Notes under the pieces: generated by a model
The model's input: only the letters and a program-made list of their open reading frames with translations
Databases searched by the model: none
Told to the model about the DNA's origin: nothing
Source of the DNA: Spirochaetes bacterium GWB1_60_80
Lineage (GTDB): Bacteria; Spirochaetota; Spirochaetia; Treponematales; UBA12059
DNA length: 34,252 nucleotides
Direction: 5' to 3'
Assembly: GCA_001829185.1 (NCBI GenBank)
Contig: MIAR01000007.1
Coordinates: 1-34,252 of the forward strand
Shown here: one piece after another, positions 1,039-33,514 of the stretch
Layout of the letters: each line of letters starts with the position of its first letter
How positions within the stretch are numbered: position 1 is the stretch's first letter
Program-made: the position numbers and the translations under genes

Positions 1039-1192
1039 TGCAAACCCGCTTCCAGACGCTTTGCTGACCGGATTATTGATTCTGTCTCTGGCTATTGGTC
1101 TATGAAAACCGGATGCAACTTGCGTCCGCGGTTTTTTGGCGGATAACAAGCCAGAAGGCCCTTAGCCGGAGCGTTCCTTGTTAGGAACGCTC
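1039..1192 (-). repeat. Dispersed ~155-bp repeat, copy A, ending in a hairpin
   Basis: This segment is similar, with scattered differences and small gaps, to 4442-4599. Shared landmarks in the same order are TGCAAACC, GATTCTGT, GGTTTTTTGG, AAGCC(A/G)GAAGGCC, CTTAGC and the hairpin GAGCGTTCC-TTGTTA-GGAACGCTC. The hairpin (1169-1177 pairing with 1184-1192) overlaps the stop codon of the orphan tip gene. It has no T-run, so it is not a typical intrinsic terminator. Both copies lie just downstream of a tip-region gene on the minus strand. Confidence 0.75.
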
Positions 1193-2696: not shown

Positions 2697-2732
2697 GGGC
2701 TGTCCTCCCCGGCAATTGGCTTGTTCATGGAC

Positions 2733-2792: not shown

Positions 2793-3099
2793 GTCACGCC
2801 ACCCGCGCGGCTACTTGTCCTTGCATAAGCAGGTACCAGGTTTGGAGGTACACACGCCGTAGCTGGCAGTGTTCGCCACACCGAGCCAGCCCGCCGCTGC
2901 CTGGTTTCCTGGTACAGGTTGCTCCTGGTTGGCTAACGGCTCCCCCTCGGCCAGGCTTCCGGCGCCGCCTTTGGGCTGCTAGCCTGGCGGTCTTGCGGTG
3001 CAAGCCCGCCACTGTTGGGCGGCCAGAGCGGCGCCGGCGATCCTGGCCTACCCCCACTTTTGGTAATCGGATTGGCAGCCAAGGCGTTTCATGATAATC

Positions 3100-5626: not shown

Positions 5627-5636
5627 CGATGTTCTC

Positions 5637-17395: not shown

Positions 17396-17650
17396 AAGAC
17401 ACTATAACCTGAGTAGTCTAGCGCGCAAATTCAGTATAATCCAGTTTTTTCTGCATTGGTTAGGCTAAAACGCCCTTGGCCGTAACTCGCGTTCGTAGCA
17501 GTGTTTATTTTAATATTATTTGATCTATTTGTGAAGCCCACAGAAAATGGAGATAAAAAAGGATACTTGGCGACGGGTGTCGTTCACCACCAGGATTATA
17601 TGTTATTGAGAAATCAGATCAAACACTAGGCCTTATATCCGTCTCTTGAT

Positions 17651-17679
17651 AAAACAGCCAGGCGATTCTGCCTGGCTGT
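17651..17679 (-). terminator. Strong intrinsic terminator of the efflux/lipoprotein operon
   Basis: On the minus strand a perfect 10-bp stem (ACAGCCAGGC at 17679-17670, GCCTGGCTGT at 17663-17654) with a six-base loop runs into TTTT. It lies about 27 bp after the stop of the last gene. Confidence 0.85.
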
Positions 17680-17705: not shown

Positions 17706-19088
17706 TTAGTTACGTGCCACTCGGAAGCCAAGTACATTTAGCATAGAATAAGCTCCAGGAAAACCGCGCTCGGCTATGGTAACGCTACTAACCGAACTGG
17801 AGAAACAACCACTACGCATTACACGATTGGTAGTGCTAGTATCTCCATGATAATCGTGCAACCAACCAGTCATTGTATAGCCAGGGTTGTCAGCGTCCGA
17901 ACTAGACCTGTCCCAACAATATTCATAGACATTACCTGACATATCGTGAAGTCCTAATTCGTTGGCTAGTTTTCCGCCGACGGGGTGCGTAGTTGTCGTT
18001 GAATTTTCTCCATACCAAACATAATCGCCGATGGCATTGCTGCCAGTCGACCCGGCGAAGGCCCGGGCATATCCGCTTGTATACGCCAAGCCGCTAAAAC
18101 CAAAGCCATGTGTGGCGCCCATGGCCGCCCACATCCATTCCATCTCACTGGGCAAGCGGTAGCCATTTGCCGCCCAATTAACCACTGCCGAATTCCAGGT
18201 GGTATTATCGGCAGTGGGAATCGAGGCATAGGCCAGAGTCGAAAAATTGATGCCGCTTACCGCGTACACCGGAGTCAAGCCCTCGCGCAGGCTCAGCTTG
18301 TTGCAGAAGGTAATAATATGGTAAAGATTCGTCCTCTGTACCGGGTCGCTGTCGCCGCTGGACGCGGCCGTATCGGAAGGATCGCCGCCTACTACATCCA
18401 AAAACTGGGCGCGGGTTATTTCGTAGCGACTGATGCGGTAGGGGTTGGAAATTACGCTGATATTTTCAGCCCCGCTGTCACGCTGGAAACGGCCCCGTGG
18501 TACACAGATAAGCGTACCGATTGTGGCCGATTCATAATGCTGCCCCCAGCTGGCATAATAAGTAATTGCGGCGGTAACATTCACCGACTGTCCTACCGCG
18601 TAAGTAAAATCCGTACCATCAGCCTTGGTGTTCCAGCCCATAAAGGTATAGCCATCACGGATCAGACCACCGCTATTCAGAGGCAACTCATACAAAGCTT
18701 CTGACATTACTTGGCTGGAGTCCGGCACGGTGCCCCCTGTGGCTTGGTTGGCATCGAAGGTAACTTGGTAGAAGTGTGTCCAATATGCATACAGGGTTAG
18801 ATCAAATACTTGATCAATATCGTACGTCTCTCCTGCGGTATAAAGGTGATCAGATCCGTCTGCGCTTTCACTCCAGCCGCCAAACTCGTAACCAGCCTTC
18901 GCCAGATTACCGGTGTTCATTGCCATTTCAACATATTCGCCACGGGTTTGGACTTGTGGGGCTGGCACTGTGCCAGAGTCGGCGCCATTTGCGTCATATG
19001 TAAGCGTATACGTGTTAATCAGATCGAGGCAGGCCGTTAAGGCCATCAGCAACAAGGCTATTGCTAAGCCTGTTAATAGTTTCTTCAA
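17706..19088 (-). CDS. Lipoprotein with InlB-type repeats and a SUMF1/FGE-like domain
   Basis: I place the start at the TTG at 19088 because AAGGAG lies six bases upstream and the product then opens with a lipoprotein signal, KKLLTGLAIALLLMALTAC (C20). The longer frame to 19202 would overlap the RND gene. Two Listeria-Bacteroides (InlB B / Flg_new) repeats follow (YTLTYDANGADSGTVP and VTFDANQATGGTVPD, each ending in a YAYW/YASW strand). A formylglycine-generating-enzyme-like domain then spans roughly residues 185-460, with ISRYEITRAQFLDVVGG, NGYRLPSEMEWMWAA, LHDMSGNVYEYCWD, VMRSGCF and LGFRVARN. Secreted SUMF1-like domains in bacteria are often binding folds rather than active enzymes, so catalysis is not implied. 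The gene is 53 bp after the RND gene and just before the operon terminator. Its link to the pump is inferred only from position. Confidence 0.85.
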   Translation of the reverse strand: MKKLLTGLAIALLLMALTACLDLINTYTLTYDANGADSGTVPAPQVQTRGEYVEMAMNTGNLAKAGYEFGGWSESADGSDHLYTAGETYDIDQVFDLTLYAYWTHFYQVTFDANQATGGTVPDSSQVMSEALYELPLNSGGLIRDGYTFMGWNTKADGTDFTYAVGQSVNVTAAITYYASWGQHYESATIGTLICVPRGRFQRDSGAENISVISNPYRISRYEITRAQFLDVVGGDPSDTAASSGDSDPVQRTNLYHIITFCNKLSLREGLTPVYAVSGINFSTLAYASIPTADNTTWNSAVVNWAANGYRLPSEMEWMWAAMGATHGFGFSGLAYTSGYARAFAGSTGSNAIGDYVWYGENSTTTTHPVGGKLANELGLHDMSGNVYEYCWDRSSSDADNPGYTMTGWLHDYHGDTSTTNRVMRSGCFSSSVSSVTIAERGFPGAYSMLNVLGFRVARN

Positions 19089-19141
19089 TTGTTTCTCCTT
19101 TTCACCGTTTCGTCGATAGACGATAATAGTTTCCAGCCAGG

Positions 19142-22100
19142 CTACTCTGCGCCAATGCCGGCCTGTGTATGCAAATTTCGTCGAAAAAACAGTCTCGGCC
19201 ACAATGCAGCCAGGGCCGGTATCAGCAGGATGGAGACCACAAACGATGCCGACACGCCACTGGCGCTTACGATAGCCAAAGACCGTACCAAACTGCTGCC
19301 AGAATCCCGTAAAAACAAGAAGGGAAGCGCGCCTGCCACCGTCGTGCCGCAGGTGGCCAATAAGGCCGGCATCCGTTGCCGCAGCACATTATAAAAAGCC
19401 TTGGCCGGATGACGCATACTACCAGCCTTTTGACCTTTTGAGAAGCCGGCAGAATTTAGAGATATTTGATGCTGGCACTCCTCAACGCCCAGCACGGCCG
19501 CATTTACCACCAAGCCGGCTACAGCCACGAAGGCACAGGCAAAGGCAGCGTTAAAAGACTGCCCACTGGCCAGTAAAAGCACGGCTGGCACGGCCAATGA
19601 GGGGGGCAAGGCCGCCAATATTACCAGCGGCAAGCTGAGGCTTTCGCTAACAATGCCTAGTACCATGTAGATGAACAATACCGCGGCCAGGAAATACCAC
19701 AATGACCCAGCTAAACGTTGTGCGCCTTGCAGGGCTTCTCGGTCAAATTCCCAGTAATACCCTATTGGCAAGACAATCGCCTCCAGCGCTTTTTGTACGG
19801 CCTGGTTTACCTTGACTGGATCAATCATCGTTCCGCGGATGGTTATGCCGGCTATTCGCCGACGGTCGCGCCGTTGAATGCGCGATACGTCTCGCTCGCG
19901 CACGGCACGCGTCAAATCACTGATACGGATCGAGGCCGCTTCGCTGGCCAGCAATACCGTGTCGACATCCGCCAAGCTGGCTTGATCCTCGCTGTGCGCC
20001 ATGGTCACCCGAACATCGTACTCGCGGCCATCTTCCAGCCGCTTATAGGCGACAGGACCGTAAATAGCCCGGCGCAACTCATCGCCAACCTGTGAAAACG
20101 AAAACCCGAAAGTCGCCAAACGTTCCCGGTCGGGCCGCAAGATTACATCCTCGGGCCCATCTTTGAAATTCAAGATCGTTTCCGATACAAAAGCGATAGT
20201 GCCACAGGCCTCCGCGGCTTGGCGCGCCAGCTCCCGGCAGATAGCGTCATCCTCCCCGCGCACCATGAGTTCCCAGCTTCTTTCCGCCAGATCATTTTCC
20301 TGAATCCAGACAAAACCGCCATTCACGGGCGTATCACGGGCGGCCTGTCTGACGCTGGCTCTATCCAGCAGCTCGGCGTCAAATTGGATTAAACCCGAAC
20401 CCGACCCAGCCCGCGCGGTGGTTTGCACCGCAAGAATGCCAGGAACCGCGCCAAGTCGGCTAGACCATTCGGCCAGACGGTTGTCAGTGCTATCGATGGC
20501 TGCGCCTGGCTCAAACTCGACATGCGCAAAAACGGCATCCTCCTCCACCGCCATGGTCGGGTCCAGGGGCAACAGTAAGAGCGAGGCTACACCGCCTATC
20601 GAAAGAAAAAAAGAGAAAATTATTATAAGCGCTGGTTTCTGCACCGTCAGCCTGGCCAGGCGGGCTTGGCCGCGATGTATCAAGCGGGCCAGTCTGCGCT
20701 TCCATACACCGTCTTTTCCGGTCTCTGGCTTCCCGCTCCGGCCACGCTTGTCAGGCAAGCCACCGATCAGCGCCAAAGGCGGCAATAAAGCAACGGCCGT
20801 AAACAGGGCCCACATGGTTCCGGCCGCGATGGCCACCCCCGTACGGCCAGCGCCAGGGCTGATTGCGTCCAGCCCGGCTAAAGGCAGGAGCGCCACGATA
20901 GTCGTAGCCGCACCGGCCACTAATGAAGGCACAAGCCGCTTCATTTCTGCGCGCGCCAGACTGCTGTTCGGGCAATAGCGCAGCCGCTCGCTGCCTAAAA
21001 TTGCGGCGTCTACCGCCGCGCCAATGCCACTGGAAAGGCCCGCCAAGATATACCTATCCAAGCTAAAGCCAAACAAGACTAACGAGGCTGCCGCCAGCGC
21101 CAACACGAAAGGAACCGTCAGGACAGCTACCAGCCGGGCGCTTTTCCGTCCATTCTGGCCGGAAAGCAGCCAGGCAGCTACGGCTACCGCCAACGCGCCA
21201 AACAAAGCCGCCTGCAAGGTCGAGGAAAAAGAGCGGGCCACATTGTCACCGGTGTCGCTTAGAATTATGAAAGATACGCCACTCTGCTTGAATTTATCCA
21301 ATTCCTGGTTAATCGCCCGGGATAGTAATGGAAGATTAGCGTGCCCAGCCGGCATCACCGCCACCACCGCAGCCCGCGCTCCGTTCAAACGCGCCAGGCT
21401 ATCCGGTTCACGCATCACCATCGTCAGCTTAGCTATGTCACCAAGCCTAACACTCCCTCCCTCGGCCAAGGGAATTCGGATGCTTTTCAGTCTTTCAGGA
21501 TCAGCATAGCGCGCGTCGAACAACAAACGGGTCTGGATGCTGCCGGTTTCTATTCTCCCCAATGGGGCAAGGATATCATTCGAAGCCAAAACGCCGGCGA
21601 TAATTCCAGCGCTACTTCCCAACCGGGCCAGGATTTGTTGATCTAGTTCTATCAGTAACTGGGCTGGCGCGCTGCCAGATAGCTCTACCTCGCCGGCGCC
21701 TGGCAGCTTTTCCAACGCTGGCTTTAAATCCCGTTCCAATAGTTGGCCTAATTCCAACTGGTTGAGCCTATCGGATGATACTGAAGCCACCCAAACCGGT
21801 CCACGGCCCTCGCTAGAGGAAACAAGCTCGGGCCGCTGGACGGATGTTGGTAATTTTTCATAAACCCGTTGCACCGCTTCCCGGACCCGCTCATACATAT
21901 AATCATTGTTACTGTCGCCGCTGAAGCGCAGAACCAGCCGGACTTTACCGAATTCGCTTACCGATACCATCTCGCTTATCCCGGACAGGCTACTGACGGC
22001 ATCCTCGAGGGGGATGGCGATGCTCCGTTCCATTTCCCGGGCATCAACGCCATAGTGCCGCAAAGTTATAGCCAAGGCGGAGCGGCCTTCGTCCTCGCGC

Positions 22101-22231
22101 GGACCGTATTCGGCTCCGGCAAAAAGCATTATGGCAAAAGTAAGCAAAGCCCCAGCCACGCAGATAGCAGCTACGGGGCGATCAAACCAATGACGGCCAA
22201 GCTCGGCCGCCTCGAATCGCGCCGAGCTCAT
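19142..22231 (-). CDS. RND efflux pump subunit, second of a tandem pair
   Basis: The ATG at 22231 overlaps the stop of the upstream RND gene by 4 bp (ATGA), giving 1029 aa. A longer frame to 22291 lies inside that gene and is not needed. The N-terminal membrane helix (RPVAAICVAGALLTFAIMLF) is followed by the first periplasmic porter domain, a helix bundle, the second porter domain and the C-terminal bundle, the normal two-fold RND layout. The TM4 region reads SSGIGAAVDAAILGSE, keeping one acidic relay residue in the VDAA form seen in CusA-type pumps. TM10 has LVVNAAVLGVEE, without the lysine of AcrB. It is inner-membrane and proton-driven. The substrate cannot be read from sequence. It diverges clearly from its partner gene, which suggests a heteromeric MdtBC-like trimer. 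Confidence 0.9.
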   Translation of the reverse strand: MSSARFEAAELGRHWFDRPVAAICVAGALLTFAIMLFAGAEYGPREDEGRSALAITLRHYGVDAREMERSIAIPLEDAVSSLSGISEMVSVSEFGKVRLVLRFSGDSNNDYMYERVREAVQRVYEKLPTSVQRPELVSSSEGRGPVWVASVSSDRLNQLELGQLLERDLKPALEKLPGAGEVELSGSAPAQLLIELDQQILARLGSSAGIIAGVLASNDILAPLGRIETGSIQTRLLFDARYADPERLKSIRIPLAEGGSVRLGDIAKLTMVMREPDSLARLNGARAAVVAVMPAGHANLPLLSRAINQELDKFKQSGVSFIILSDTGDNVARSFSSTLQAALFGALAVAVAAWLLSGQNGRKSARLVAVLTVPFVLALAAASLVLFGFSLDRYILAGLSSGIGAAVDAAILGSERLRYCPNSSLARAEMKRLVPSLVAGAATTIVALLPLAGLDAISPGAGRTGVAIAAGTMWALFTAVALLPPLALIGGLPDKRGRSGKPETGKDGVWKRRLARLIHRGQARLARLTVQKPALIIIFSFFLSIGGVASLLLLPLDPTMAVEEDAVFAHVEFEPGAAIDSTDNRLAEWSSRLGAVPGILAVQTTARAGSGSGLIQFDAELLDRASVRQAARDTPVNGGFVWIQENDLAERSWELMVRGEDDAICRELARQAAEACGTIAFVSETILNFKDGPEDVILRPDRERLATFGFSFSQVGDELRRAIYGPVAYKRLEDGREYDVRVTMAHSEDQASLADVDTVLLASEAASIRISDLTRAVRERDVSRIQRRDRRRIAGITIRGTMIDPVKVNQAVQKALEAIVLPIGYYWEFDREALQGAQRLAGSLWYFLAAVLFIYMVLGIVSESLSLPLVILAALPPSLAVPAVLLLASGQSFNAAFACAFVAVAGLVVNAAVLGVEECQHQISLNSAGFSKGQKAGSMRHPAKAFYNVLRQRMPALLATCGTTVAGALPFLFLRDSGSSLVRSLAIVSASGVSASFVVSILLIPALAALWPRLFFRRNLHTQAGIGAE

Positions 22232-25200
22232 GCGTCTGGTTCCGGTATTTTCTTGACAGCGGGCGCGGAGAATTTGGAATTGCGCAGCCAATTATTGAAA
22301 AGCACTGGTGCCAAAAACAGGCTCAGAACAGTAGATGCAAACAAGCCGCCCAACATGGCTAAGGACATGGAACGCTGGGCCGCCCCAGCCGAGAACACGA
22401 TCATCGGGACGAGGGCTACTATGGTGGTCGCCGTCGTCGCCAGGATGGGCCGTATACGTTTGGTTGCGCCTAACCAGGCGGCCAAGCCAGAAGAACAACC
22501 GGCCATCCGGTATTGCTGCGTAGTTTCAAACATTATTATCGCATTATTGACCGCGACGCCAAACAAGACTACCAAGCCTAGGACGCTTCCAGAATCCAGG
22601 CCTGCGCCGCCCAAGATGAGGGCCGGGCCGGCCCCGGCCAAGGCCAAGGGGATAGTGGTAAGCAGGAGGGCGGGCAAACCGAGCGATTCAAACTGGGCGC
22701 TGAGGACCAAATATAATAAAACAATTACCAGAATAATGGTACCAAGCAAGGCTTTACCGTGCTGCTTCAAGGCTGACTCATCATGGTCCTGAACGAAGGG
22801 CAACTCTTGCTTGATGGTCATGATCATCTTGGCATAAGGCTTTTCCTGGCCAACCGGCGGCAGCACGCGTACATACAATACGTCGCGCCGGTCGATCCTG
22901 GCTAAAGCCGCCGGTATATCGTCCTCAACAAAGTTCGCTATCGCGCCTACGGATAGCAAGCCTTCTTTCAGCAGTATCGGCAATGACCTTACCGCGTCGA
23001 TACTGGTCAAATAACGGGAGCCAGCGTCGGCATTATCATCAAGCCGCGCCGGGTCGGCCGCCACCCGTATCGACTGGCTGATGCCATCCAGTTCAATAGT
23101 GCCTATCACCGCGCCTTCCGCCGCATAACCCATCGCCGAGGCCAACTGGCTGCTGTCCAGTCCCAATAAACTGAGCCTTTCACGCAGGGGAATTACCAGA
23201 ATTCGCGTTACCCTGGATGATGGGCTGACCTGCACCAGCGCTTCAGCATCGCCCGCCAAAACACGTAACCGGTCCTTGAATTGCGCCAGATTTTCCCTGG
23301 CCCTATCCGGTTCGTCGCCGCGCACCACGAGCCCTTGCTGGCTATCGATACCAAGCAAGCGGGCAGCCGGATCGATAGCCGCTTGTATAAAATACTCACA
23401 ATCGGCCGGCACTATGGTCGTGGACGACCTGAACAGGCTATCGCGCAGGGCCAGGGAGTCAAAACCAGCCTTCACGAAGCAGTAGATAACCAGATTCTGG
23501 GGTGACCAAGCTGGATCGGAACGGCGCACCAAATCGGCTACTTCCGCGCCAGCCACGCCGTAGCTATGGCTAATCCCTTCCAGTTCATTAATCCTGGCCT
23601 GGATGGCCGTCCCATCCCGGCTAATTCTCTCAAAGGTGGTACCGGCCGGGAAACTCACGGTATAGATATATTCAGTTACTTCATCTTCAGGCATGAAAGA
23701 GACGGGCCGCTGCAGAATGAGCCCAAGACCCAGTATGGCCGACACAATCGATATTACTATAACAAATTGCGGGCGCCGTAAGACCGTCGCCAGAGCCTTG
23801 CCATATTTCCTCTCCAAGACCTCGCTTCTTACGGCTACCGTAGGTCTATGCATCAGGAAATACAGGGAAGGAAGCGCGAAGACACCCATGATCCAGCCGG
23901 CGGTGTTGGCAACGATGAGGCTGATGGCCAGATCGGCAAACAAGGCTCCGAGGGCGCCTGGCAGGAACAAAATCGGCACGAACACCACGGCCGTGGTAAT
24001 CGTGCTGCCAAACGTCCCGCCCGCTACCTCCATCACGGCCTCTACAACCATTGCCCGGTCAAGCGGCCGCTGCGCTTTATGCACGCGCGCCACGATGGCG
24101 TCAAGCACGACCACCGCGTTGTCGGATATCAGGCCAATTGCCAAGCCAATGCCACCCAGGCTCATGCTATTCAAGGATCGACCAGTCAAGCTCAAAACGA
24201 CCAAGGAACAGGCCGCCGACAGCGGAATCGTGGCCGAAACCAAAAAGCCGGCCCGCAGGCTGCGTAGGGCAGCCAGTAAGACTACTATAGCCGCGATCGC
24301 GCCTAGCACGATCGACAGGCCCAAGCCTTGCACTGAAGAAGCTATCGCCAAGGACTCGTCGCGTACGATCTCGATCTTGATATCATCGCCTATAGCCCGG
24401 CTCATGTCGGCAATGCTGCCTCGTAATTCGCGCGCGGTCGCTACTGGGTCTACATCGGCGCGGGCATAGACTTCCAGGCAGATCTGCTCCGAACCGCCAT
24501 ACAGGAATAAACTGTCCTGCCGGGCCGGACGTTCCACGACCCGAGCCAATTGGTCGAGCGGAAATGCACCGGAAGGCCCATTAAGCAGTATCCTGGAAAA
24601 TTCATCCAAGCGTGTGCTGCGGCCGCGCGCCACCACCGAAAGCTCCAAGCGGCCGTTACGGACACTCCCGGCCGGTATGTCGGCATGAGCCTGCCCGATA
24701 GCCTGCGCCAGTTGGCTAACGTCCACCTGGCGGGCAGCGGCCTTTTCGACATCCACTAAAACGACGATTTCATTATCCGATCCGCCGCTCATACTTACCA
24801 TGCCGACGCCAGCCACCTGCCGCAAGCGAGCTTTCATCTCGTACTCGACAATACGGCGGGTAAAGGCTACAGACTGCCGGGTGCTTGTCACGGCCAAAAC
24901 CAGCAGCGGCGCGGACGCATTGTCAACCGGTAACACGATAGGCCGTTCCGCTCCTTCGGGCAACGAAGGATAGACTGCGTCCACCAATTCCCGGACGCGC
25001 GCAGCGGCTCGATTGCTGTCCTCGCCCCAAGCAAAATCCAGCTGAATCAAGCTACGGCTATCCCGAGTTATGCTGCGCATGCTACTTAATCCGCGTGCCG
25101 AAGCCAGGGCATCCTCAAGGCTTTTGGTAATCAGGCTGCGCATTTCGGTCGAGGACATCCCGGGCCAGGCTGCGTCTACCAGGACGCGGGCTCGATCTAC

Positions 25201-25320
25201 CGGTGGTAAGCGTGCTAATGGCAAATTCGCGACGGATATTCCAGCAACCAGTAGCAGCCCCAATAATAGCATGAGCACGGCAATCGGTCGGTCAACGGCG
25301 CCTTTTAAAAGACTGCGCAT
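22228..25320 (-). CDS. RND efflux pump subunit, first of a tandem pair
   Basis: This 1030-aa product opens with the typical RND first helix (RPIAVLMLLLGLLLVAGISV) and porter motif (VLVDAAWPGMSSTEMRSLI). TM4 reads GLAIGLISDNAVVVLDAI. The first of the two AcrB-type aspartates is kept and the second is Asn. TM10 reads VLFGVAVNNAIIMFE, with Asn in place of the AcrB lysine. The start is 8 bp after the Ig-like lipoprotein gene and the end overlaps the second RND gene, so all are co-translated. Together with the TolC-like and membrane-fusion proteins encoded upstream, it completes a tripartite pump spanning both membranes. Multidrug, lipid and metal export are all possible. Confidence 0.92.
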   Translation of the reverse strand: MRSLLKGAVDRPIAVLMLLLGLLLVAGISVANLPLARLPPVDRARVLVDAAWPGMSSTEMRSLITKSLEDALASARGLSSMRSITRDSRSLIQLDFAWGEDSNRAAARVRELVDAVYPSLPEGAERPIVLPVDNASAPLLVLAVTSTRQSVAFTRRIVEYEMKARLRQVAGVGMVSMSGGSDNEIVVLVDVEKAAARQVDVSQLAQAIGQAHADIPAGSVRNGRLELSVVARGRSTRLDEFSRILLNGPSGAFPLDQLARVVERPARQDSLFLYGGSEQICLEVYARADVDPVATARELRGSIADMSRAIGDDIKIEIVRDESLAIASSVQGLGLSIVLGAIAAIVVLLAALRSLRAGFLVSATIPLSAACSLVVLSLTGRSLNSMSLGGIGLAIGLISDNAVVVLDAIVARVHKAQRPLDRAMVVEAVMEVAGGTFGSTITTAVVFVPILFLPGALGALFADLAISLIVANTAGWIMGVFALPSLYFLMHRPTVAVRSEVLERKYGKALATVLRRPQFVIVISIVSAILGLGLILQRPVSFMPEDEVTEYIYTVSFPAGTTFERISRDGTAIQARINELEGISHSYGVAGAEVADLVRRSDPAWSPQNLVIYCFVKAGFDSLALRDSLFRSSTTIVPADCEYFIQAAIDPAARLLGIDSQQGLVVRGDEPDRARENLAQFKDRLRVLAGDAEALVQVSPSSRVTRILVIPLRERLSLLGLDSSQLASAMGYAAEGAVIGTIELDGISQSIRVAADPARLDDNADAGSRYLTSIDAVRSLPILLKEGLLSVGAIANFVEDDIPAALARIDRRDVLYVRVLPPVGQEKPYAKMIMTIKQELPFVQDHDESALKQHGKALLGTIILVIVLLYLVLSAQFESLGLPALLLTTIPLALAGAGPALILGGAGLDSGSVLGLVVLFGVAVNNAIIMFETTQQYRMAGCSSGLAAWLGATKRIRPILATTATTIVALVPMIVFSAGAAQRSMSLAMLGGLFASTVLSLFLAPVLFNNWLRNSKFSAPAVKKIPEPDA

Positions 25321-25328
25321 GGCCGTAC

Positions 25329-26918
25329 CTATTTAATCAGTGGCAATTGCCACTGTTGCGCCAGATGCCGATCTGCCTTGTCCCGCAGGCTGGTAGCAAA
25401 AATTAAACGCACTATGCCCGCTTCTGTCGAGTTTCTAAGCGTGCCATGTATCTCTATCCTTATATAAGGTAATGAGACTGAGGCATCCGGCGTCGGATTT
25501 AGAAACTCCGCGGTATTGGTTTTTATCAGTTTTGGGGAAAAACTGACCGCCCCCCCCGTCGCTTCTACCCTGAAGCTTTCCATAACGCTGTACAGATTTA
25601 GCTCGGTATTCTCCGCCAAGCGGATATAGACCTCAAAACAGGTGGCAGTATTGGTATTGATCCGGTAGCCAAGGGGGACATCTTCAATATCAAATTGCCC
25701 CCAACTATCGGCTACAGTCCATAGTGTCCACAGCTGGGCAGCTATGTCAGCCTCGCCTGGCAACAAAGGCATGCGAACCGCCAATACTTCTGGTGGCCTG
25801 GAGGCGGTGCCATTGGCCCAAATCCGGTACTGCACTTGAGCTTCACTTTTGTTTGCGGACTGGTCCTCTATACCTGGCTTGAGGGTACACAGGAACACCG
25901 AATCCCAATCCGGCTTTTCAATCAGGCGATAAACGACCGTCGCTGCAAACCGGTTGCTGCCAACCCGCTCCAGGGCTGGGCCACCTTCGGTTACCAAGCG
26001 GCTGTCCAGGGTTGCACAATTCACCGGCTCGTCAAACTGAATTTGCAGGCTCCAGCTATCTTCCCAGCCAACGTTTAATACCTGAGTAGCCATTAACGGA
26101 TCCTCTGGAAGCAGGCTCAACACCACTGTGTCAGAAGCATTGATGGCCACCAGCGATATTAGCTGCGGGGCTGCCAAGTCAGTCCCGCCAAGAAACTCAG
26201 ACTCAATATTTTCTACCAAGGCCATATTCTGTAGCGTTTTCAAGGCAGTGCTTATTTTCAAACTATACGTTTGCGTCCTCACCCAGTCTTGGAACGGAGT
26301 AAACGTGGCAGTAGTATTATCGCCATTGAACTGCCAGGCACCGGAAACCGTCGGCGTCAGACTGAACGCCTTACGTAAAGAGAGGCTGTCAATTGCCTCA
26401 TTGAACGATAAAACCAACGGAGCACGCAATCCGCTTACTGCAGATCCGTGGCCAGGGCTGCAACTTGTCAGCTCGGGGCGGGTATGGCTTGTCCGGGTCG
26501 TGAACCGGAATTCCAAATCATCGTCAAGTGACAGACCATCCAGTGCTTGGGCGGAGCGTGCCACCCGTATTATATAATCGCACGGCACTAACGGTGGATA
26601 AGCTGGTATAAACTCGACGGTTGACCCTTGCCACTCATATTGCCCGACGAGCTCTACGCCATCGGCCGTAACGGTGATCGCCTCTTCAACAGAAATGGTA
26701 TCTGGCGGAAGCGAAAAGGTAAGACTAAGCGTACTGCCAGCAGTAAATTCCTGATAACCTGCTCCTGGCAACCATGAATCAATGCTAAATTCACCGGTCC
26801 GAAGGAAATCACAACCGGAATGCACTGTGGATATTCCGCCCATGCACAATGATAACATAAAAATTCGAAAAACCTGCAACGTTGATTTGATGGAGAAAGG
26901 AATGGATGCGATACTCAC
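25329..26918 (-). CDS. Ig-like (Big_5-type) lipoprotein, second of a pair
   Basis: This 529-aa protein starts at a GTG that overlaps the previous stop by 4 bp. The hydrophobic leader ends at VHSGC (C36), a loose lipobox. Two N-terminal Big_5-like segments are visible, with TLSLTFSLPPDTISVEEAITV followed by DYIIRVARSAQALDG, and APLVLSFNEAIDSLSLRKAF with TYSLKISTALKTL. Further beta-sandwich repeats follow. Such domains occur in bacterial surface adhesins and envelope proteins and carry no enzyme activity. The gene has the same domain type as its upstream neighbour and lies 8 bp before the first RND gene. Its tight coupling to the pump suggests an envelope structural or adaptor role, but this is inference. 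Confidence 0.75.
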   Translation of the reverse strand: MSIASIPFSIKSTLQVFRIFMLSLCMGGISTVHSGCDFLRTGEFSIDSWLPGAGYQEFTAGSTLSLTFSLPPDTISVEEAITVTADGVELVGQYEWQGSTVEFIPAYPPLVPCDYIIRVARSAQALDGLSLDDDLEFRFTTRTSHTRPELTSCSPGHGSAVSGLRAPLVLSFNEAIDSLSLRKAFSLTPTVSGAWQFNGDNTTATFTPFQDWVRTQTYSLKISTALKTLQNMALVENIESEFLGGTDLAAPQLISLVAINASDTVVLSLLPEDPLMATQVLNVGWEDSWSLQIQFDEPVNCATLDSRLVTEGGPALERVGSNRFAATVVYRLIEKPDWDSVFLCTLKPGIEDQSANKSEAQVQYRIWANGTASRPPEVLAVRMPLLPGEADIAAQLWTLWTVADSWGQFDIEDVPLGYRINTNTATCFEVYIRLAENTELNLYSVMESFRVEATGGAVSFSPKLIKTNTAEFLNPTPDASVSLPYIRIEIHGTLRNSTEAGIVRLIFATSLRDKADRHLAQQWQLPLIK

Positions 26919-28390
26919 TGCTTTATCTCCAGATAGAGCTGAAAGTCATCTTCCATCCGGGAATTCAAGCCGTTAGAAATCCCTCCCAAGCCACCAGGAA
27001 TAGAAAGTTTATATATACAAGTCTCGGTGGGCGTGCTCTGTATCAAACCAGTATATACCAGCACTAAAATATCTGTCGGCACCGCTGTTAACCAAGCAGC
27101 GGACTTCAGGGTAATCCCCGAGGCCGTCGAAGCGGGGAAGAAACCGCTCAAGCTGATGCGACTGACTACATCTATGGCAGCCTCAGCGCCAATCGCTTGA
27201 TTAAAATTAATTGTTAACGACAATTCACCACCAGTCGCAAGAATCGTTACTTGCAAGACCTGTCCGGCAACAGGGCTGGTCAATATCTCGGCTGGATCAG
27301 CAGCAGAAATACTGTCAATCGTCAGCCACGGGGTAACGATACTCATAGCAAAACGCTGCTCGGTACCATGCTGAATCCCTGGCAAGTCCAACAAGCCGGC
27401 ACTCACCACGACAGTATATTCACTTTCAGGGTTAAAATCCTTCTGGGGAACATATACAAATACATCGCCAGCCAATTGCTCAAATCGTCCTTGCAGGCTT
27501 GGCTCAAACTTTATGGCACTTGCTACAGAAGCGGGCTGAACTGCTTCTGAAAACTGAAAACCAATGGCGTCAGTTGTTTCAAAATCAGCGGCTGTCGCTG
27601 TTGGCGCTACCAGTTCCCACAAGCCGTCTACTTGATGCATCGGCACTATCGCGTTTAGACTTGGAGCTTCAACATCAAGAATTGTCAAAAAAACACCACT
27701 CTCGGCACGATCTAGCAGCGAGCCATCGGCGGACGTAGCTTCAGATGCCAAAGACCACTCATACACTGCGCAAGGCTGCAATGCCCGTTTCGGCACGCAT
27801 GAAACGAACGTATTGTCGCTGTTCCAGGTAAAAGTGATATCTATGGCTGGATTTAATTTAAAGGCCTTTTGGACGCTCTCTATGTCCATGGCTTCGGAAA
27901 ACAGGAGCGTCACGAGCGCATCATCCGCTGGAAACACGCTGGTAGTGCTGCGGTCAAGTGGAGTGTAACTCGCCAAGCAGGGCCCTGGCGAAGCTCGCAT
28001 TGCGTAGAAACTGCTATCGTAATTGAGCTTGGCTATCCTGCCATCCAGTAGCGGAACGACACCCTGAGCTTGCAAACGATAGGCTACCGTCGGCTGCCAG
28101 TCAATATACGGAGTAAAGCGGCATTCGTTATCGATCCAGTCATAGTCGCCAGATATTGCGCCGCCTGGCCCCATCACTTTAAAAATTTTTTCTGCTATTA
28201 CCTTATCAACCGCGGCAGGAAAATTCAGCGCAACGTAGCTATCGGCGGCCGCGAGTACCTGATTACGGCCCGCGGGAAAGGCTACAACAACAACCGGACG
28301 TAAATCAATAAGCCCGCAAGACGAGCAGGCCAGCAGCCATACCGCCATGATCATGCCGAAAAATGGGGTAACATTTGTATTATTGGACAT
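26915..28390 (-). CDS. Ig-like (Big_5-type) lipoprotein, first of a pair
   Basis: This 491-aa protein has the leader MIMAVWLLACSSC, with the best lipobox at LLAC22. Repeated Big_5-type motifs are YVALNFPAAVDKVIAEKIFKV, ALVTLLFSEAMDIESVQKAF and AIGFQFSEAVQPASVASAIKF, each followed by a strand with a YR/YEWSL or EYTVVVSAGLLD motif. I see no catalytic residues. The start overlaps the end of the membrane-fusion gene by 11 bp (ATGTCCAATAA). The pair probably arose by duplication, since lengths and domain order are similar, although the sequences have diverged a great deal. Confidence 0.75.
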   Translation of the reverse strand: MSNNTNVTPFFGMIMAVWLLACSSCGLIDLRPVVVVAFPAGRNQVLAAADSYVALNFPAAVDKVIAEKIFKVMGPGGAISGDYDWIDNECRFTPYIDWQPTVAYRLQAQGVVPLLDGRIAKLNYDSSFYAMRASPGPCLASYTPLDRSTTSVFPADDALVTLLFSEAMDIESVQKAFKLNPAIDITFTWNSDNTFVSCVPKRALQPCAVYEWSLASEATSADGSLLDRAESGVFLTILDVEAPSLNAIVPMHQVDGLWELVAPTATAADFETTDAIGFQFSEAVQPASVASAIKFEPSLQGRFEQLAGDVFVYVPQKDFNPESEYTVVVSAGLLDLPGIQHGTEQRFAMSIVTPWLTIDSISAADPAEILTSPVAGQVLQVTILATGGELSLTINFNQAIGAEAAIDVVSRISLSGFFPASTASGITLKSAAWLTAVPTDILVLVYTGLIQSTPTETCIYKLSIPGGLGGISNGLNSRMEDDFQLYLEIKQ

Positions 28391-29768
28391 TGACGCTATC
28401 GCCTTCCCGCAAGCCCGTAGGTGGATTGAGGATTACCACCTCGCCAGGACGTAGTCCTGATAAGACAATCACGAGCATTTCTCGGTCACCACCAGCTGTG
28501 GTTGTAGCAGCATCCGTTCCCATATTTACACCTGTTGCTACGCTTCGCGCCTGGGCTTTACCGGCAGCTACCACGAATAGCGAAGCATTCTCGCCAGAAC
28601 GGCTGAACAGAGCGCTTTCGGGAACCACAAGCACCGTACGGGCTGGCCCCAAGCGGATAAGGCATTTAACAAACATCCCTGGGCGTAAATCCGTTACCCG
28701 GCCCATAAGCCGGATGCGAACTGAAAAACTGGCGGTTCGGGAATCTGCTATCGGGGCAATCAATTCGATCCTGCCCTCGACCTCACGATCCAAGGCCTCA
28801 ATAGAAATCAAGGCACTCATACCCGGGGTTAGCCTAACCGCTTCGGCTTCATTTACTGGCACTACGGCGTGCAATATGGCCATATCAATTACCGTAAATA
28901 ATTGATCATCACGCTTAACACGTTCACCGACCTCAACGTGCCTGGCGCCAACAGTACCTCCAGCTGGGGCTAATATTACAAGTTCCTGATCGACCAAACG
29001 AGCGGAATCCAATTCACCTTGGGCAGTACTGACGCCGGCGATGGAAGCATCACGCTCAGCGCGCAAAGTAGCTGTATTCAAATTCAAAATTGACTGGCGC
29101 AAGGCTGCAGGGTTAGTTGGAACAGCCATCCCGGCATTGACCAAATCAATCGGCCTGGTACCGATGGCTCGAATTTCCATGTCTTTTCGCATCAATACTA
29201 TTCGTTCGCGCGCTGATTCCAACGCAAATCTGCTCCCGCGAATCACTTCCTCAGTTACGCCACCGGCGGCAAACAACTGCTCTTGATCGAGATGTTTTCT
29301 CTCTGTCTCAGCAAGTTCCCGCTCCGCCTGCTGCAATTCAAGTTGCGATTTTTCAAGAGTCAATAACCTGCTTTCTGCAGCAAGTATGCCTTCCCTCAAA
29401 CGGGCTTCGGCGACAAGCAAGGCTGCCCTGGCTCTTTCCAGCCCATTGCCAGCTCGTTCTACAGCTATTGTAACTTGGGGATTATATAAGCGGGCGACTA
29501 CCTGATTTGTCCGAACTAGGTCACCTTCCCGAAAAAACATGGCTTGTACCTGGGCATCTTGGGGTGATTTTATCTCGAATTTCTTTTCCCAAGCCAAACT
29601 TCCGAACACGGCCAGTTCATCAGGTTGTTCAGTCTCGGTAGCTACAACAGCACGGACCGCCACAGCCCTATCCAAATGTATGACTTCTTCTTTTTTGCAT
29701 GCCGTGAAAACCATAAGAAGACAAGCACCGCATAAAAAAAAGATATTGATTCTTGCTGTCAGTTTCAT
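28380..29768 (-). CDS. RND membrane-fusion (periplasmic adaptor) lipoprotein
   Basis: This 462-aa protein has a lipoprotein signal ending in LLMVFTAC (C24). The biotinyl-lipoyl half motifs (EIKSPQDAQVQAMFFREGDLVRTNQVVARL and LAPAGGTVGARHVEVGERVKRDDQLFTVID, shown here only as landmarks near residues 63-93 and 263-293) flank a long alpha-hairpin of about 160 residues that would contact the TolC-like protein. Beta-barrel and membrane-proximal domains follow (GRVTDLRPGMFVKC, VLVVPESALF). It bridges the RND pump and the outer-membrane channel. The start overlaps the TolC-like gene's stop by 4 bp. Confidence 0.92.
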   Translation of the reverse strand: MKLTARINIFFLCGACLLMVFTACKKEEVIHLDRAVAVRAVVATETEQPDELAVFGSLAWEKKFEIKSPQDAQVQAMFFREGDLVRTNQVVARLYNPQVTIAVERAGNGLERARAALLVAEARLREGILAAESRLLTLEKSQLELQQAERELAETERKHLDQEQLFAAGGVTEEVIRGSRFALESARERIVLMRKDMEIRAIGTRPIDLVNAGMAVPTNPAALRQSILNLNTATLRAERDASIAGVSTAQGELDSARLVDQELVILAPAGGTVGARHVEVGERVKRDDQLFTVIDMAILHAVVPVNEAEAVRLTPGMSALISIEALDREVEGRIELIAPIADSRTASFSVRIRLMGRVTDLRPGMFVKCLIRLGPARTVLVVPESALFSRSGENASLFVVAAGKAQARSVATGVNMGTDAATTTAGGDREMLVIVLSGLRPGEVVILNPPTGLREGDSVNVQ

Positions 29769-31177
29769 AATTCTTCTCCAGCACAGTACAAGGCCAAGCC
29801 GCCAGTCTCTATTTCCGCCATCTTCTCTAATTCCCGCTCGGCATTAAGCACCGCCAAGTGTGAATCGATTAAAGCCAATTGTTTTTCCGAAAGCGCCAGG
29901 CTGGCTGATAGCAATTCCAGCCTGGTTTTTTTTCCTAACGACAACTCAAGCTGCATGAAGGCTAGCCGAGTTTGCGCTAAAGCCATTTCCCTAGCAGCCA
30001 ATTGCCGTCTTTGCCAAACAATCGCATATCGCTCTAGCGCGGCTTGGGCTTGCCGTCGCAGACTGACGATCATTTGTTGCAGCTTTTCCTGCTCGATTGA
30101 GATCGCCAATAATTGACTTTGAGGGGTAAGCATGGCGGCAGGATTTGCTAACGGATCGATTTGCGCACTGCTGCGCATAGTAGAAATATCATTCCCATCC
30201 TGCCCACCAGAAACTCCCAAGGTTGAATTCAGAAATGGAAGCGAAAAATCCAAGCTCAGGCCAACATTCCAATTAAACTCAGTCAACGGATAAGATGCGC
30301 CGCTGACGCGCATAGTTGCCTTCAAGCTGACCGTCGGCATCCAGGACCAATTATACACGCGAATTTCAGCAAGCTTCTTCTGGATAGCTTGACGTTGAGC
30401 AATCAAATCGACCGACCGCGCCAAAACCATGGAAATATATAAATCTGCTTCTACCTCAACTCGCGAACTTTCCAAATCAAAGGATTCACTCACGGCTGGA
30501 ACGCTTTCCATTCCCAGGAGACTGGTCAATTCCAGCTCGGCCAAGCGTAAATCTAATAGATTATTGTCGAGCTCTAATTCAAGGCTGGCAATTTTGATTT
30601 CCGCCTCATTGATATCACTAGCCAATGTCAAACCAAGGTTACTTTCAATTTGCATCAAACTTAACTGCTGTCTTGCCATATCCAAGGAACGTTGCCTGAT
30701 CTCTATTCTTTGGCGTGTAGCTATCAATGAACGCAGAGCCTGCACGACTGAATCGCCCAAGGCCTGTTCCTTTCTTCTTAAACCTACCAAAGCCAGCGAA
30801 ATATCCTGTTCCTCAAACATACGTGACATCAACAGGCGGCCGCCATCCCAAAGCGTTTGATTGAGGCTGACGCCCATGCTTTTACTAAAATTATCTTGCC
30901 CATCCAACACCAGCCGTTCATCGCCCATGGCATCAAACGAGATTTCAGGCAGAAGGCTTCTGAACGCTAGTCGCCAGGCACCATGCCTTAATCCAAGGGA
31001 AGCGCGTTCTGCTTCTATCTCATAAGAGTTACTGATAGCCCGTAACACCAGATCGTTAATGGAGTATTCGGATTCTTGGGCTACTGCGACATTCGAACTA
31101 ATACTGAAATTGATCAAAAATACAACCAGCGCCAAGGTGCGGCCGAATAATTGATGTTGAAAGCTTGAGGTGCTCAC
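29765..31177 (-). CDS. TolC-like outer-membrane efflux protein
   Basis: This 470-aa protein starts with GTG at 31177, 12 bp after the preceding gene, and has a signal peptide ending near VAVAQE. Two outer-membrane-efflux (OEP) repeats of long helices are visible. One runs through ISNSYEIEAERASLG, LRSLIATRQRIEIRQRSLDMA and LELDNNLLDLRLAELELTSLLG. The other runs through LIAQRQAIQKKLAEI, QAQAALERYAIVWQRRQLAAREMAL and LSASLALSEKQLALIDSHLAVL. This is the usual TolC length. It would form the trimeric channel for the pump. Confidence 0.92.
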   Translation of the reverse strand: MSTSSFQHQLFGRTLALVVFLINFSISSNVAVAQESEYSINDLVLRAISNSYEIEAERASLGLRHGAWRLAFRSLLPEISFDAMGDERLVLDGQDNFSKSMGVSLNQTLWDGGRLLMSRMFEEQDISLALVGLRRKEQALGDSVVQALRSLIATRQRIEIRQRSLDMARQQLSLMQIESNLGLTLASDINEAEIKIASLELELDNNLLDLRLAELELTSLLGMESVPAVSESFDLESSRVEVEADLYISMVLARSVDLIAQRQAIQKKLAEIRVYNWSWMPTVSLKATMRVSGASYPLTEFNWNVGLSLDFSLPFLNSTLGVSGGQDGNDISTMRSSAQIDPLANPAAMLTPQSQLLAISIEQEKLQQMIVSLRRQAQAALERYAIVWQRRQLAAREMALAQTRLAFMQLELSLGKKTRLELLSASLALSEKQLALIDSHLAVLNAERELEKMAEIETGGLALYCAGEEL

Positions 31178-31189
31178 GGTAAGCTGGCT

Positions 31190-31702
31190 CTACTCAGCCA
31201 CGACTTTTACTGCCGGTAGTTGGTTTATCAACTGTTGTGCAAGACGCTGCAACAATGCTTCATCTAAAAGCGACTCTTGTCCTTCAGTCCACACTCGCGC
31301 GATAAAAATCGGGCTGATCTCATTGGCTTCATAAATCAACATTTCAATGTAAATAACATTTGTTGCGGTAAAATTTTTGTAGGCTTCATGCTCATGAAGT
31401 AAAAAGCGCACCCGCCGATTTACACCATCATTGGTCTCATTTACCTGCCAACCCCGGCTACTAAGAAAAAAGGGTACAAGTTTGGTAAATTGACGTCCCA
31501 CAGTTGTAGATTCAAGAGTCCGTTCAACCAAGATTTGCTCAATAAACAATTGGCGCCCATCGGCAGCGGAAATTGCTCCATAAGCTGAAACGCCCGGAAA
31601 CAGATTTCCAATTGAAACACAGGATAATAATGCCAAAGAGAAAAGAGTATAAAAAATGGCGAAGCAAATTCTTGCTTCAAGAATCCGCGTCCTCTGAATC
31701 AT
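31190..31702 (-). CDS. Small lipoprotein of unknown function in the pump operon
   Basis: I do not recognise the family. The 170-aa product has a lipoprotein signal ending in LALLSC (C28). A short mixed alpha/beta domain follows, with LVPFFLSSRGWQVNETNDG, VIYIEMLIYEAN and IARVWTEGQESLLDEALLQRLAQQL, reminiscent of small outer-membrane lipoproteins of the DUF4136 kind, though I cannot confirm this. The start overlaps the TPR lipoprotein's stop by 4 bp and the stop is 12 bp before the TolC-like gene. Confidence 0.75.
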   Translation of the reverse strand: MIQRTRILEARICFAIFYTLFSLALLSCVSIGNLFPGVSAYGAISAADGRQLFIEQILVERTLESTTVGRQFTKLVPFFLSSRGWQVNETNDGVNRRVRFLLHEHEAYKNFTATNVIYIEMLIYEANEISPIFIARVWTEGQESLLDEALLQRLAQQLINQLPAVKVVAE

Positions 31703-32361
31703 TCAATCCCCACTCGTGTCGCATTCATCCGGAGCAGCAACTCATTGGCTGCTGACCAAAGCCGTGATTCACTTGGCAAAAGCTTGAGCGCAATCTGAAT
31801 ATCATCAATCGCAGCTGCATTCTTACCCGCCGCCCAAAGTAATTCAGCTCTATCCATAAAAATCAAGCCTAATTCTCCTTGGCCCATAATGGCTTGCTCC
31901 AATAAATATAGGGATTCAGCTGTTTCGCCCCGCTCAATGGCCATTTTTGAGAGCATCCGTAACGCCGCCGGATTTGTATCCTCATCGGCTAATACAGTAT
32001 TCAAAACCACTAAGGCCTCGTCACTTGCCTCAAGCGCCACAAGTGCGCGAGCAAGCCATATCCGTGTATCAACTGAACTATTCTGCAAATCAAAGGCCCG
32101 CCGAAACTCCCTCGCCGCTCCTTCGAAATCAGATTGCGTATACAGCACCCGGCCGGCGAGATTATAGGCAGGCGCAAAGGACTTGTCTTGCCCTTGAGCC
32201 TCACGCGCTAGTCGTAAGGCTTGATCGAATTCCTGGTTCTCATAAGCTTGTAAAGCCGACAAATATGTTCGTGCAGTCAAATCTTTTCCAGACTGGTCAC
32301 AACTCGTTAACACAGCGCCAATCATCAAAAAACCGAGTAATAGTGATCTTTTACCCATCAT
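31699..32361 (-). CDS. TPR-repeat lipoprotein
   Basis: This 220-aa protein has a clear lipobox, GAVLTSC21. About five tetratricopeptide-type helical pairs follow, including SALQAYENQEFDQALRLARE, APAYNLAGRVLYTQSDFEG, TRIWLARALVALEASDEA and DRAELLWAAGKNAAAIDD. TPR lipoproteins act as docking or assembly factors, for example in outer-membrane protein assembly. Here the operon context suggests support of the pump or its lipoproteins. Both ends overlap neighbouring genes by 4 bp. Confidence 0.82.
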   Translation of the reverse strand: MMGKRSLLLGFLMIGAVLTSCDQSGKDLTARTYLSALQAYENQEFDQALRLAREAQGQDKSFAPAYNLAGRVLYTQSDFEGAAREFRRAFDLQNSSVDTRIWLARALVALEASDEALVVLNTVLADEDTNPAALRMLSKMAIERGETAESLYLLEQAIMGQGELGLIFMDRAELLWAAGKNAAAIDDIQIALKLLPSESRLWSAANELLLRMNATRVGIE

Positions 32362-33416
32362 GGTCTTCCACCAGCATATCGCAAACGTTCTGCCAGGCGT
32401 CCGTTAGCTTTTGCAGATTCTGCCTGGATCCATTGTCTTACAATTTGATTATCAGCCAGTCCTTGAAGGGCTCCTAAAGCGTAAAGTGTCGCAGGGTTAT
32501 CCGCCAAGCCCAGCAAGGGGAACAATGACTTAATCTGCTCCAAATCCGCGTCCGCGAGAGCAGTTTGAATCAAGTCTTGAATTTCCTGAACCGTTAGGAG
32601 CCCAACTGCCGCCCCTTTTGGCAAAGACCATAATTCCGCCAACGCTTCCCGTGCCAAAAGCGCAAAGGGTCCGGTAGGGGCCAGATTAATGCAACGCTCT
32701 GCTGCATCGATGGCCAGGCTATCATTAAGATTAATACGCATTGCATAGTACCAATATTGCGGTAACAACCGATACCGCGACATCATACTCCCGTATGCCG
32801 TAGCCAACTGGTCATAGACCACAATCTGGTCGCCTTGATAGGGCCTTGATTCATTAAGCTCTATTTGTGCAACTAAGTACATCCAGGCTTGAAATGAATC
32901 ATCATGTAACGTGTAGCCAGCCAGATTTGCCAATATCTTTTCTGCACCGGCCCAATCCGAGGCCAAAAAGAGACGAACTGCTTCGATCGACTGATTAACC
33001 AAGCGGCCATCCTCACTCGATTGGTCCATCCAATTTGCTGCAAGCTGATTTAAGCTACCAGCATAGTCATCTATGGTTATCATTCCAGTCGCATAAGCCT
33101 GCGACAAGTCAGCGCATGCCGCAAAAACCGCGGGGACTACCAATCCTAATTGCTCGTAATAACTTGACGCAACTAGACCAGACCCTGCCTGATAGCCTTG
33201 GCGCCGCTCGGTTTCGTTTAAAATCAAAAGCTTGGAATGAAACTCGCCAGCTTTTTCCATATCTGTTGCCTGAAGAATAGCCGAAACGCCATTATCTCCA
33301 TTTTGAGCATTCCCGAGCGTTTCTCTTTCTTCCCCATTTCCGCATGCCACGTAAAAACAAAGAAACAAAAAAGATAGAAAGCCAACACAACAATTTTTCA
33401 GCACTTGCCTTATCAT
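32358..33416 (-). CDS. First operon gene: lipoprotein of unknown function with helical repeats
   Basis: This 352-aa protein has a lipobox at FYVAC25. The remainder is predominantly helical and TPR/Sel1-like in feel (DWAGAEKILANLAGYTLHDD, SRYRLLPQYWYYAMRINLND, AERCINLAPTGPFALLAREA) but lacks a clean repeat consensus. The ATG at 33416 has GAGAGG about six bases upstream and a promoter 70-100 bp upstream. The stop overlaps the TPR lipoprotein's start by 4 bp. Confidence 0.78.
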   Translation of the reverse strand: MIRQVLKNCCVGFLSFLFLCFYVACGNGEERETLGNAQNGDNGVSAILQATDMEKAGEFHSKLLILNETERRQGYQAGSGLVASSYYEQLGLVVPAVFAACADLSQAYATGMITIDDYAGSLNQLAANWMDQSSEDGRLVNQSIEAVRLFLASDWAGAEKILANLAGYTLHDDSFQAWMYLVAQIELNESRPYQGDQIVVYDQLATAYGSMMSRYRLLPQYWYYAMRINLNDSLAIDAAERCINLAPTGPFALLAREALAELWSLPKGAAVGLLTVQEIQDLIQTALADADLEQIKSLFPLLGLADNPATLYALGALQGLADNQIVRQWIQAESAKANGRLAERLRYAGGRP

Positions 33417-33485
33417 GAATACCTCTCAAGCTCAGTGATTGGGAATATACTTTTGCATTAATCAAAGATCTAAATTTGCAATAAT

Positions 33486-33514
33486 AGCATATCTGACAAA
33501 TGATTAGATGTCAA
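33486..33514 (-). promoter_or_regulatory. Promoter of the ten-gene efflux/lipoprotein operon
   Basis: A perfect -35 box TTGACA (33509-33514) is 17 bp from TATGCT (33486-33491). Transcription would start near 33479, leaving a ~62-nt leader. A TGACA/TGTCA inverted repeat with a ten-base spacer overlaps the -35 box and the spacer, so a dimeric regulator could bind there. No regulator gene is present nearby. Confidence 0.7.

Follow-up and report, generated by a model that had tools for sequence, protein, structure and literature searches.

A conserved RND-TolC-lipoprotein gene set of spirochaetes and its probable partner, a giant exoprotein built like a polymorphic toxin

The genome of Spirochaetes bacterium GWB1_60_80 carries an operon in which genes for two resistance-nodulation-division (RND) permeases, an adaptor, and a TolC-like channel are joined to genes for several lipoproteins. 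We analyzed this operon within a stretch of 34,252 nucleotides (contig MIAR01000007.1, positions 1 to 34,252, of assembly GCA_001829185.1; here called the window) and compared it with related loci of other spirochaetes. The gene set is real and phylum-wide. It comprises nine genes, which encode two tetratricopeptide repeat (TPR)-type lipoproteins, a 170-aa lipoprotein, TolC, the adaptor, two immunoglobulin (Ig)-like lipoproteins (IgB and IgA), and the two permeases (RND1 and RND2). The conserved locus continues to a giant gene (positions 5637 to 17309) outside the region covered by the initial annotation. This 3,890-aa neighbor, overlooked in that annotation, best explains the locus. A functional tie between the cluster and the giant is very probable, and the giants are, in all likelihood, polymorphic toxins by their predicted architecture. 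With less assurance, we favor the view that the products of the locus deliver, in two steps, a giant polymorphic exoprotein with predicted antibacterial activity.

Conservation of the pump and lipoprotein genes

Relatives were sought in 146 genomes of the order Treponematales (including the genome carrying the window) and in 296 genomes of the phylum. IgB relatives were present in 46 of the 146 order genomes, including the window's own genome. Of the 45 others, 44 yielded 47 relative loci (two each from G008, G109, and G124), and G113 (E value, 8.9e-4) was left out. The genes for TolC, the adaptor, IgB, IgA, RND1, and RND2 were all found within the stretch examined in 36 of these 47 loci. Eight of the 11 incomplete loci are cut by a contig end (L029, L030, L033, L039, L042, L045, L053, and L056), and the other three are L031, without both RND genes; L050, without a detectable TolC gene; and L055, without RND2. 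The Ig pair, located between the adaptor and RND1 in the window as the initial annotation had stated, stands before TolC but still inside the set in one branch of family f3. Outside the order, 16 more loci likewise retain the set, and 14 of them contain the six core genes (L112 is cut by a contig end and L116 by the limit of the stretch examined); in several of these loci (L116 and L118 to L121), the Ig pair flanks the RND genes on the opposite side. Ig-like and small lipoprotein genes standing apart from the pump in relatives would have refuted the initial annotation by its own criterion; it was not refuted, the Ig genes being accompanied by TolC, adaptor, and/or RND genes in 47/47 order loci.

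The FGE-sulfatase-domain lipoprotein gene, counted as the tenth gene of the operon in the initial annotation, was rejected as a member of the set. The row of 10 consecutive minus-strand genes does exist in the window (33416 to 17706 in the list of open reading frames [ORFs]), but the FGE gene is not found between RND2 and the giant in the mapped relatives, and a terminator follows it. This gene may be a stray member of the group of genes that lie downstream of giants, because FGE domains occur in two genes behind giants elsewhere.

Linkage and co-occurrence of the giant gene

The giant of the window (approximately 422 kDa) has a signal peptide recognizable by eye and no match among the Pfam, NCBIfam, or PHROG families. 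Most relatives have a very large open frame, not an FGE gene, directly behind RND2, with its start at the RND2 stop or a short distance away. Such a giant adjoins the cluster in 28 of the 47 order loci; 9 loci end too early, and 10 are readable without one (i.e., 28 of 38 readable loci are linked). For nine of these ten unlinked loci, the genome has a giant elsewhere (G017, G039, G099, G109 twice, G124, G133, G140, and G145), leaving G126 as the only genome without one. Across the 146 order genomes, giant and IgB occur together in 42, IgB alone in 4 (G026, G065, G113, and G126), the giant alone in 2 (weak fragments in G046 and G120), and neither in 98 (Fisher test, 1.8e-29, which is not a true probability because the genomes are related). 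One of the four genomes with IgB alone, G065, has the domain preceding the giant's C-terminal tip (the pre-tip domain), according to a profile search. The patchy pattern, with cluster and giant both present or both absent, is seen even inside genus g22.

In the phylum sample, 47 of the 49 genomes with a giant have a strong IgB match (E value, 1e-20 or better), the exceptions being G161 and G339. In the other direction, our first giant model detected no giant in 21 of the 68 strong-IgB genomes. A broader model, which was run only on these 21 genomes and on four order genomes, recovered a clear giant in 6 of the 21 (G169, G190, G193, G270, G299, and G311) and a weak match in two (G280 and G368). 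A pattern for the N-terminal region, searched against a collection of species genomes, gave 49 named loci, all titled as spirochaetes, namely, termite-gut Treponema, Gracilinema caldarium (L129), groundwater Spirochaetae, and one member of the "Brevinematales." The locus is common among termite-gut and free-living spirochaetes, which makes it accessible to study in harmless strains.

Several genomes show unusual arrangements. In G008, the giant of L031/L080 lies directly behind IgA in the cluster without RND genes, and a second, complete cluster (L059) is located on another contig. The giant of L092 (positions 93 to 8873; G042) is split into two frames of 735 and 2,161 aa, and G316, a spirochaete genome of 6.0 Mb, has up to six giant-like frames of approximately 4,500 to 5,100 aa. 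The pre-tip domain was found without a detected giant N terminus or IgB in seven order genomes (G023, G050, G054, G061, G079, G102, and G117), which may represent remnants, contig ends, or giants with another N terminus.

Constant bodies and variable tips

Twenty-five giants align lengthwise, with poor conservation of the last few hundred residues. In two pairs of close relatives, the similarity breaks off sharply. L075 and L076 are 59 to 92% identical per 150-residue block over 2,550 residues and then 47, 17, and 21%; L077 and L078 are 75 to 97% identical per block and then 49, 25, and 27%. The pre-tip region also occurs in displaced copies that end differently. The window contains one such orphan, 75% identical to giant residues 3052 to 3334 and continuing into a different end; L082 has three, and L100 has two. 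Along with the giant, six more frames of G012 match the pre-tip profile, within approximately 26 kb. In the window, the GC content is 0.59 for the giant body, 0.38 for its final 100 codons, and 0.30 for the gene behind it, and it falls from 0.65 to 0.41 along the orphan. Among 46 unique giants, the tail has a lower GC content than the body in 33, and the close downstream gene is lower in 25 of 30.

A nearly invariant His-Glu motif (HEAYRDG or HEDDH) precedes the variable tip in the giants and in the product of the orphan gene, and this region may possibly be a self-cleaving release domain. The model of the pre-tip region (A5; mean predicted local distance difference test score [pLDDT], 64.9) gave no significant Foldseek match and nothing in a search of solved structures, and VIA-align returned low Z scores only (best, 5.5). 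Several of the VIA-align rows for model residues ~325 to 456 are zinc metallopeptidases (CapP, oligoendopeptidase F, BlaR1, and SPRTN), a lead toward a putative metallopeptidase-like domain. The modeled N-terminal domain (A6; mean pLDDT, 77.8; predicted template-modeling score, 0.48) consists of long helices, in keeping with a stalk; its matches to designed and spectrin-like helical proteins were set aside as carrying no function. A search of solved structures with a third model, A3, gave weak Ig-domain matches to L,D-transpeptidases only. As for a relation to phage tape-measure proteins, two giants had no PHROG match and the N-terminal domain had no relative on viral contigs, an absence that does not amount to exclusion.

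Tips and downstream genes

Of 30 C termini scanned, 10 matched wall-cutting Pfam families at an E value of 2e-4 or better, and six of these pass the Pfam cut-off; this proportion should not be read as an unbiased rate, because the scanned tips were not random and three of one batch of ten (L150, L165, and L173) had been picked for ends that were already M23-like. The M23 family was found in eight ends (L105, the L082 orphan, L097, L150, L165, L173, the L100 orphan, and L124), M15 in L136, and CHAP in L102, and two further tips (L104 and L152) gave weak M23 matches. The recognized tips are predicted peptidoglycan peptidases.

A same-strand next gene was assigned by rule to 39 of 51 giants and orphans, and 33 of these genes start within -30 to +80 bp. 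By a simple rule, 27 of the 33 encode a lipobox or signal peptide, versus 48 of 186 background frames; the gene behind the window giant encodes a predicted lipoprotein as well. Related tips tend to be followed by related downstream genes (14 of 54 tip-related pairs versus 18 of 726 others). In this comparison, the pairs are not independent, and a few downstream genes are probably wrong because each was taken as the longest same-strand ORF at -60 to +350 bp. L076 and L139 have related tips and related downstream genes, though their bodies are only distantly alike. A domain scan of 10 downstream proteins revealed SH3_3 domains in three, FGE-sulfatase in two, NADase_transloc in one, and none in four. 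These observations mark the downstream genes, which are short and differ between giants, as candidate immunity genes that change with the tip.

A possible route of export

The locus has the features of a tripartite RND pump (i.e., permease, adaptor, and TolC-like channel), and the window's genome encodes one other full-length RND permease and other OEP-family channels. The aspartate of transmembrane helix 4 (TM4) is kept in both permeases (41/41 RND1 and 38/38 RND2 sequences), and an asparagine occupies the position that we take to correspond to the TM10 lysine of AcrB (41/41 and 37/37, respectively). Because of these residues, both permeases look proton coupled. No NCBIfam cut-off for a drug or metal RND permease subfamily was reached by the window permeases. 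Other exporters were also sought. No ABC protein for type I secretion is present among the 10 operon products. The VipA sheath gene of the type VI secretion system (T6SS) had no match in the window's genome, while the Escherichia coli control was positive. A search for TpsB (ShlB) found none among the 10 operon proteins and no match in the genome, with the control genomes being silent too.

Under the two-step scheme, Sec would carry the giant into the periplasm, as the signal peptide suggests, and the exported lipoprotein encoded by the next gene would keep the tip harmless there. An exported immunity protein would be expected for a tip that is active in the periplasm, which speaks for a giant that pauses there on its way out. 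The TolC-adaptor channel and the two permeases would then move the giant across the outer membrane, with the TPR, Ig-like, and small lipoproteins as possible receptors or chaperones in the transfer. Outside the cell, the long helical body would display the tip, which, upon contact, would reach the wall of a neighbor. We connect the pump with export because RND pumps take up substrates from the periplasm, because SecDF, a distant RND relative, pulls proteins there, and because TolC is the conduit of unfolded proteins in type I secretion, all of which we add to the linkage and co-occurrence described above. Linkage and co-occurrence make pump-driven export of the giant across the outer membrane fairly probable. 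More tentatively, the locus may represent an RND-powered protein secretion machine for Sec-exported toxins of approximately 2,300 to 5,100 aa that attack walls in a contact-dependent manner.

Several points weigh against the two-step scheme. We know of no protein export by RND pumps, and both the export of the giant and the killing by its tips are predictions from sequence. The broader giant model still detected no giant in 13 of the 21 phylum genomes or in any of the four order genomes, although one of these four, G065, has the pre-tip domain. The L031 giant follows a cluster that lacks RND genes, and in the window, the FGE gene and its terminator stand between giant and pump. The Pfam scan assigned no convincing family to 18 of the 30 tips, and the close pair L137/L138 retains the same tip.

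It is conceivable, albeit unlikely, that the giant crosses by some other route and that the RND-TolC set acts indirectly, in assembly, anchoring, or processing, or by exporting a lipid or small molecule on which the giant depends. Assembly or anchoring would be a fitting task for the Ig-like and TPR lipoproteins, small compounds are the usual substrates of RND pumps, and the window giant is preceded by a terminator and a separate promoter-like site; the L031 arrangement points the same way. However, the neighborhood revealed no other dedicated route, most relatives have the start of the giant at or near the RND2 stop, and the association survives where giant and cluster lie apart. An ordinary efflux or envelope pump with the giant carried along as a neighbor would accord with the domain-level match to tripartite RND pumps and with the cluster genomes that have no detected giant, but we consider it very improbable, given that the co-occurrence holds where the genes are unlinked and within genus g22 and that no drug or metal subfamily cut-off was reached. 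A drug pump was rejected on the latter ground and because the genomic partner is a giant exoprotein. The initial annotation had proposed an envelope-building exporter of lipids or surface proteins rather than a drug pump; surface protein traffic agrees with the tie between the locus and a giant exported protein, whereas no evidence for lipid traffic was found. There is also little to recommend an envelope-remodeling or adhesion protein with a wall-cutting end for the producer's own peptidoglycan, a role suited to the peptidase tips and the SH3_3 domains, because tip replacement, displaced cassettes, and the GC drop at the tip and next gene characterize polymorphic toxins rather than housekeeping enzymes, and most of the sampled genomes have no giant.

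Organization of the window

The 10 genes are, in order, TPRa, TPRb, orf170, TolC, the lipidated adaptor, IgB, IgA, RND1, RND2, and the FGE lipoprotein (Table 1). Pfam matches are Big_5 Ig-like domains in two products and OEP, HlyD, ACR_tran (two products), TPR, and FGE-sulfatase in others. The initial annotation counted six lipoproteins besides the adaptor. By eye, the lipobox is clear in TPRb (LTSC), orf170 (LLSC), IgB (LLAC/CSSC), and FGE (LTAC), as it is in the adaptor (FTAC), and is noncanonical in TPRa (YVAC) and IgA (HSGC). The spacings at the nine junctions are -4, -4, +12, -4, -11, -4, +8, -64, and -61 according to the ORF caller. Overlaps of 4 bp, described earlier as the prevailing type, therefore account for four of the nine junctions as called; a fifth is obtained at RND1/RND2 if RND2 starts at Met21. 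The promoter described as strong does exist as a TTGACA-17-TATGCT site, but such matches are hardly above chance in number (23 found versus 16.2 expected, with a standard deviation of 4.1). The terminator holds up: the stem-loop with its T-run was read by eye, and positions 17640 to 17690 fold at -20.7 kcal/mol, although it is absent from the list of an automated scan.

Table 1. Predicted features of the window, in the direction of transcription
Feature	Position	Strand	Basis
Promoter-like site TTGACA-17-TATGCT before operon	33486..33514	-	Pattern scan; not above chance alone
TPRa, lipoprotein, first gene of set, no TPR match of its own	32358..33416	-	Noncanonical lipobox, locus comparison
TPRb, TPR lipoprotein	31699..32361	-	Pfam, locus comparison
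orf170, small 170-aa lipoprotein, no Pfam family; relatives in many loci	31190..31702	-	
TolC-like outer-membrane channel	29765..31177	-	Pfam OEP, 3.7e-26
Periplasmic adaptor (membrane fusion protein), lipidated	28380..29768	-	HlyD_D23, 8.8e-21; TIGR01730 above cut-off
IgB, Big_5 Ig-like lipoprotein	26915..28390	-	Pfam
IgA, Big_5 Ig-like protein, noncanonical lipobox in window	25329..26918	-	Pfam, locus comparison
RND1 permease	22228..25320	-	Pfam; TM4 Asp400 invariant in 41 relatives
RND2 permease, probable start 22231	19142..22291	-	Pfam; TM4 Asp428 invariant in 38 relatives
Lipoprotein with FGE-sulfatase domain; nonconserved insertion between RND2 and giant	17706..19202	-	Pfam, locus comparison
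Intrinsic terminator after FGE	17655..17678	-	Read by eye, folded
Promoter-like site TTGATC-16-TATAAT before giant	17595..17622	-	Pattern scan; not above chance alone
Giant polymorphic exoprotein (3,890 aa) with variable C-terminal tip; signal peptide recognized by eye	5637..17309	-	
Predicted 304-aa lipoprotein, AT-rich, 10 bp behind giant; candidate immunity gene	4712..5626	-	
Displaced (orphan) copy of giant's pre-tip region with another end	1191..2696	-	75% identity to giant residues 3052-3334

An IS3-type transposase gene (positions 3101 to 4408, plus strand) lies between the lipoprotein gene downstream of the giant and the displaced pre-tip copy; the IS3-type element is a mobile element within the cassette region of the window. 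At the contig end (positions 129 to 706, minus strand), two short overlapping frames resemble, by eye only, a HigB/RelE-type toxin and a helix-turn-helix antitoxin.

Comparison with known systems

Two different RND permeases served by one adaptor are also found in MdtABC-type pumps, which differ in functioning in drug efflux and in having no lipoprotein set; models for MdtB and MdtC match the window permeases far below their cut-offs. Contact-dependent inhibition (CDI) and two-partner secretion share with the present locus a giant Sec-exported protein, a variable toxic tip, and an immunity gene (export, toxicity, and immunity being predictions here), as well as orphan cassettes. Export in CDI depends on a TpsB barrel, and most CDI immunity proteins are cytoplasmic, whereas the neighbors here are RND and TolC genes and the downstream genes mostly have export signals. 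Peptidoglycan effectors of the T6SS are likewise wall-cutting toxins paired with exported immunity proteins; the predicted effectors here, in contrast, are the C-terminal parts of giants that bear a signal peptide, in a genome without a sheath gene match. BesABC of Borrelia has one permease and neither Ig-like or TPR lipoproteins nor a giant, a difference from the window locus that is one of description, not of compared sequences. In the sections of the BesABC report on which we draw (PMC2279261), this system combines a spirochaete TolC, an adaptor, and an RND permease, as does the present locus. Polymorphic toxin systems, as presented in the sections consulted of Zhang et al. (2012; PMC3482391), have a constant N-terminal body, a variable C-terminal tip, an adjacent candidate immunity gene, and displaced cassettes, all of which recur here; the difference lies in the link of the giant to an RND-TolC-lipoprotein cluster. 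The same source lists at least eight delivery routes for such toxins (type II, V, VI, and VII secretion, Photorhabdus virulence cassettes [PVC], PrsW, MuF, and others), and RND and TolC are not mentioned in its main text insofar as consulted. None of the listed routes was seen at the locus, the genome-wide searches having covered the T6SS sheath and TpsB.

Implications

Among the open-licence papers searched, we found no description of this locus. Large-protein delivery and the fighting of rivals by spirochaetes are little explored. Should the export step be borne out, RND pumps would export proteins in addition to their role in efflux, and a family of unannotated giants would acquire a function along with a simple way to test it. 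An RND secretion machine of this kind, if true, would represent a new class of secretion system spread over the phylum Spirochaetota.

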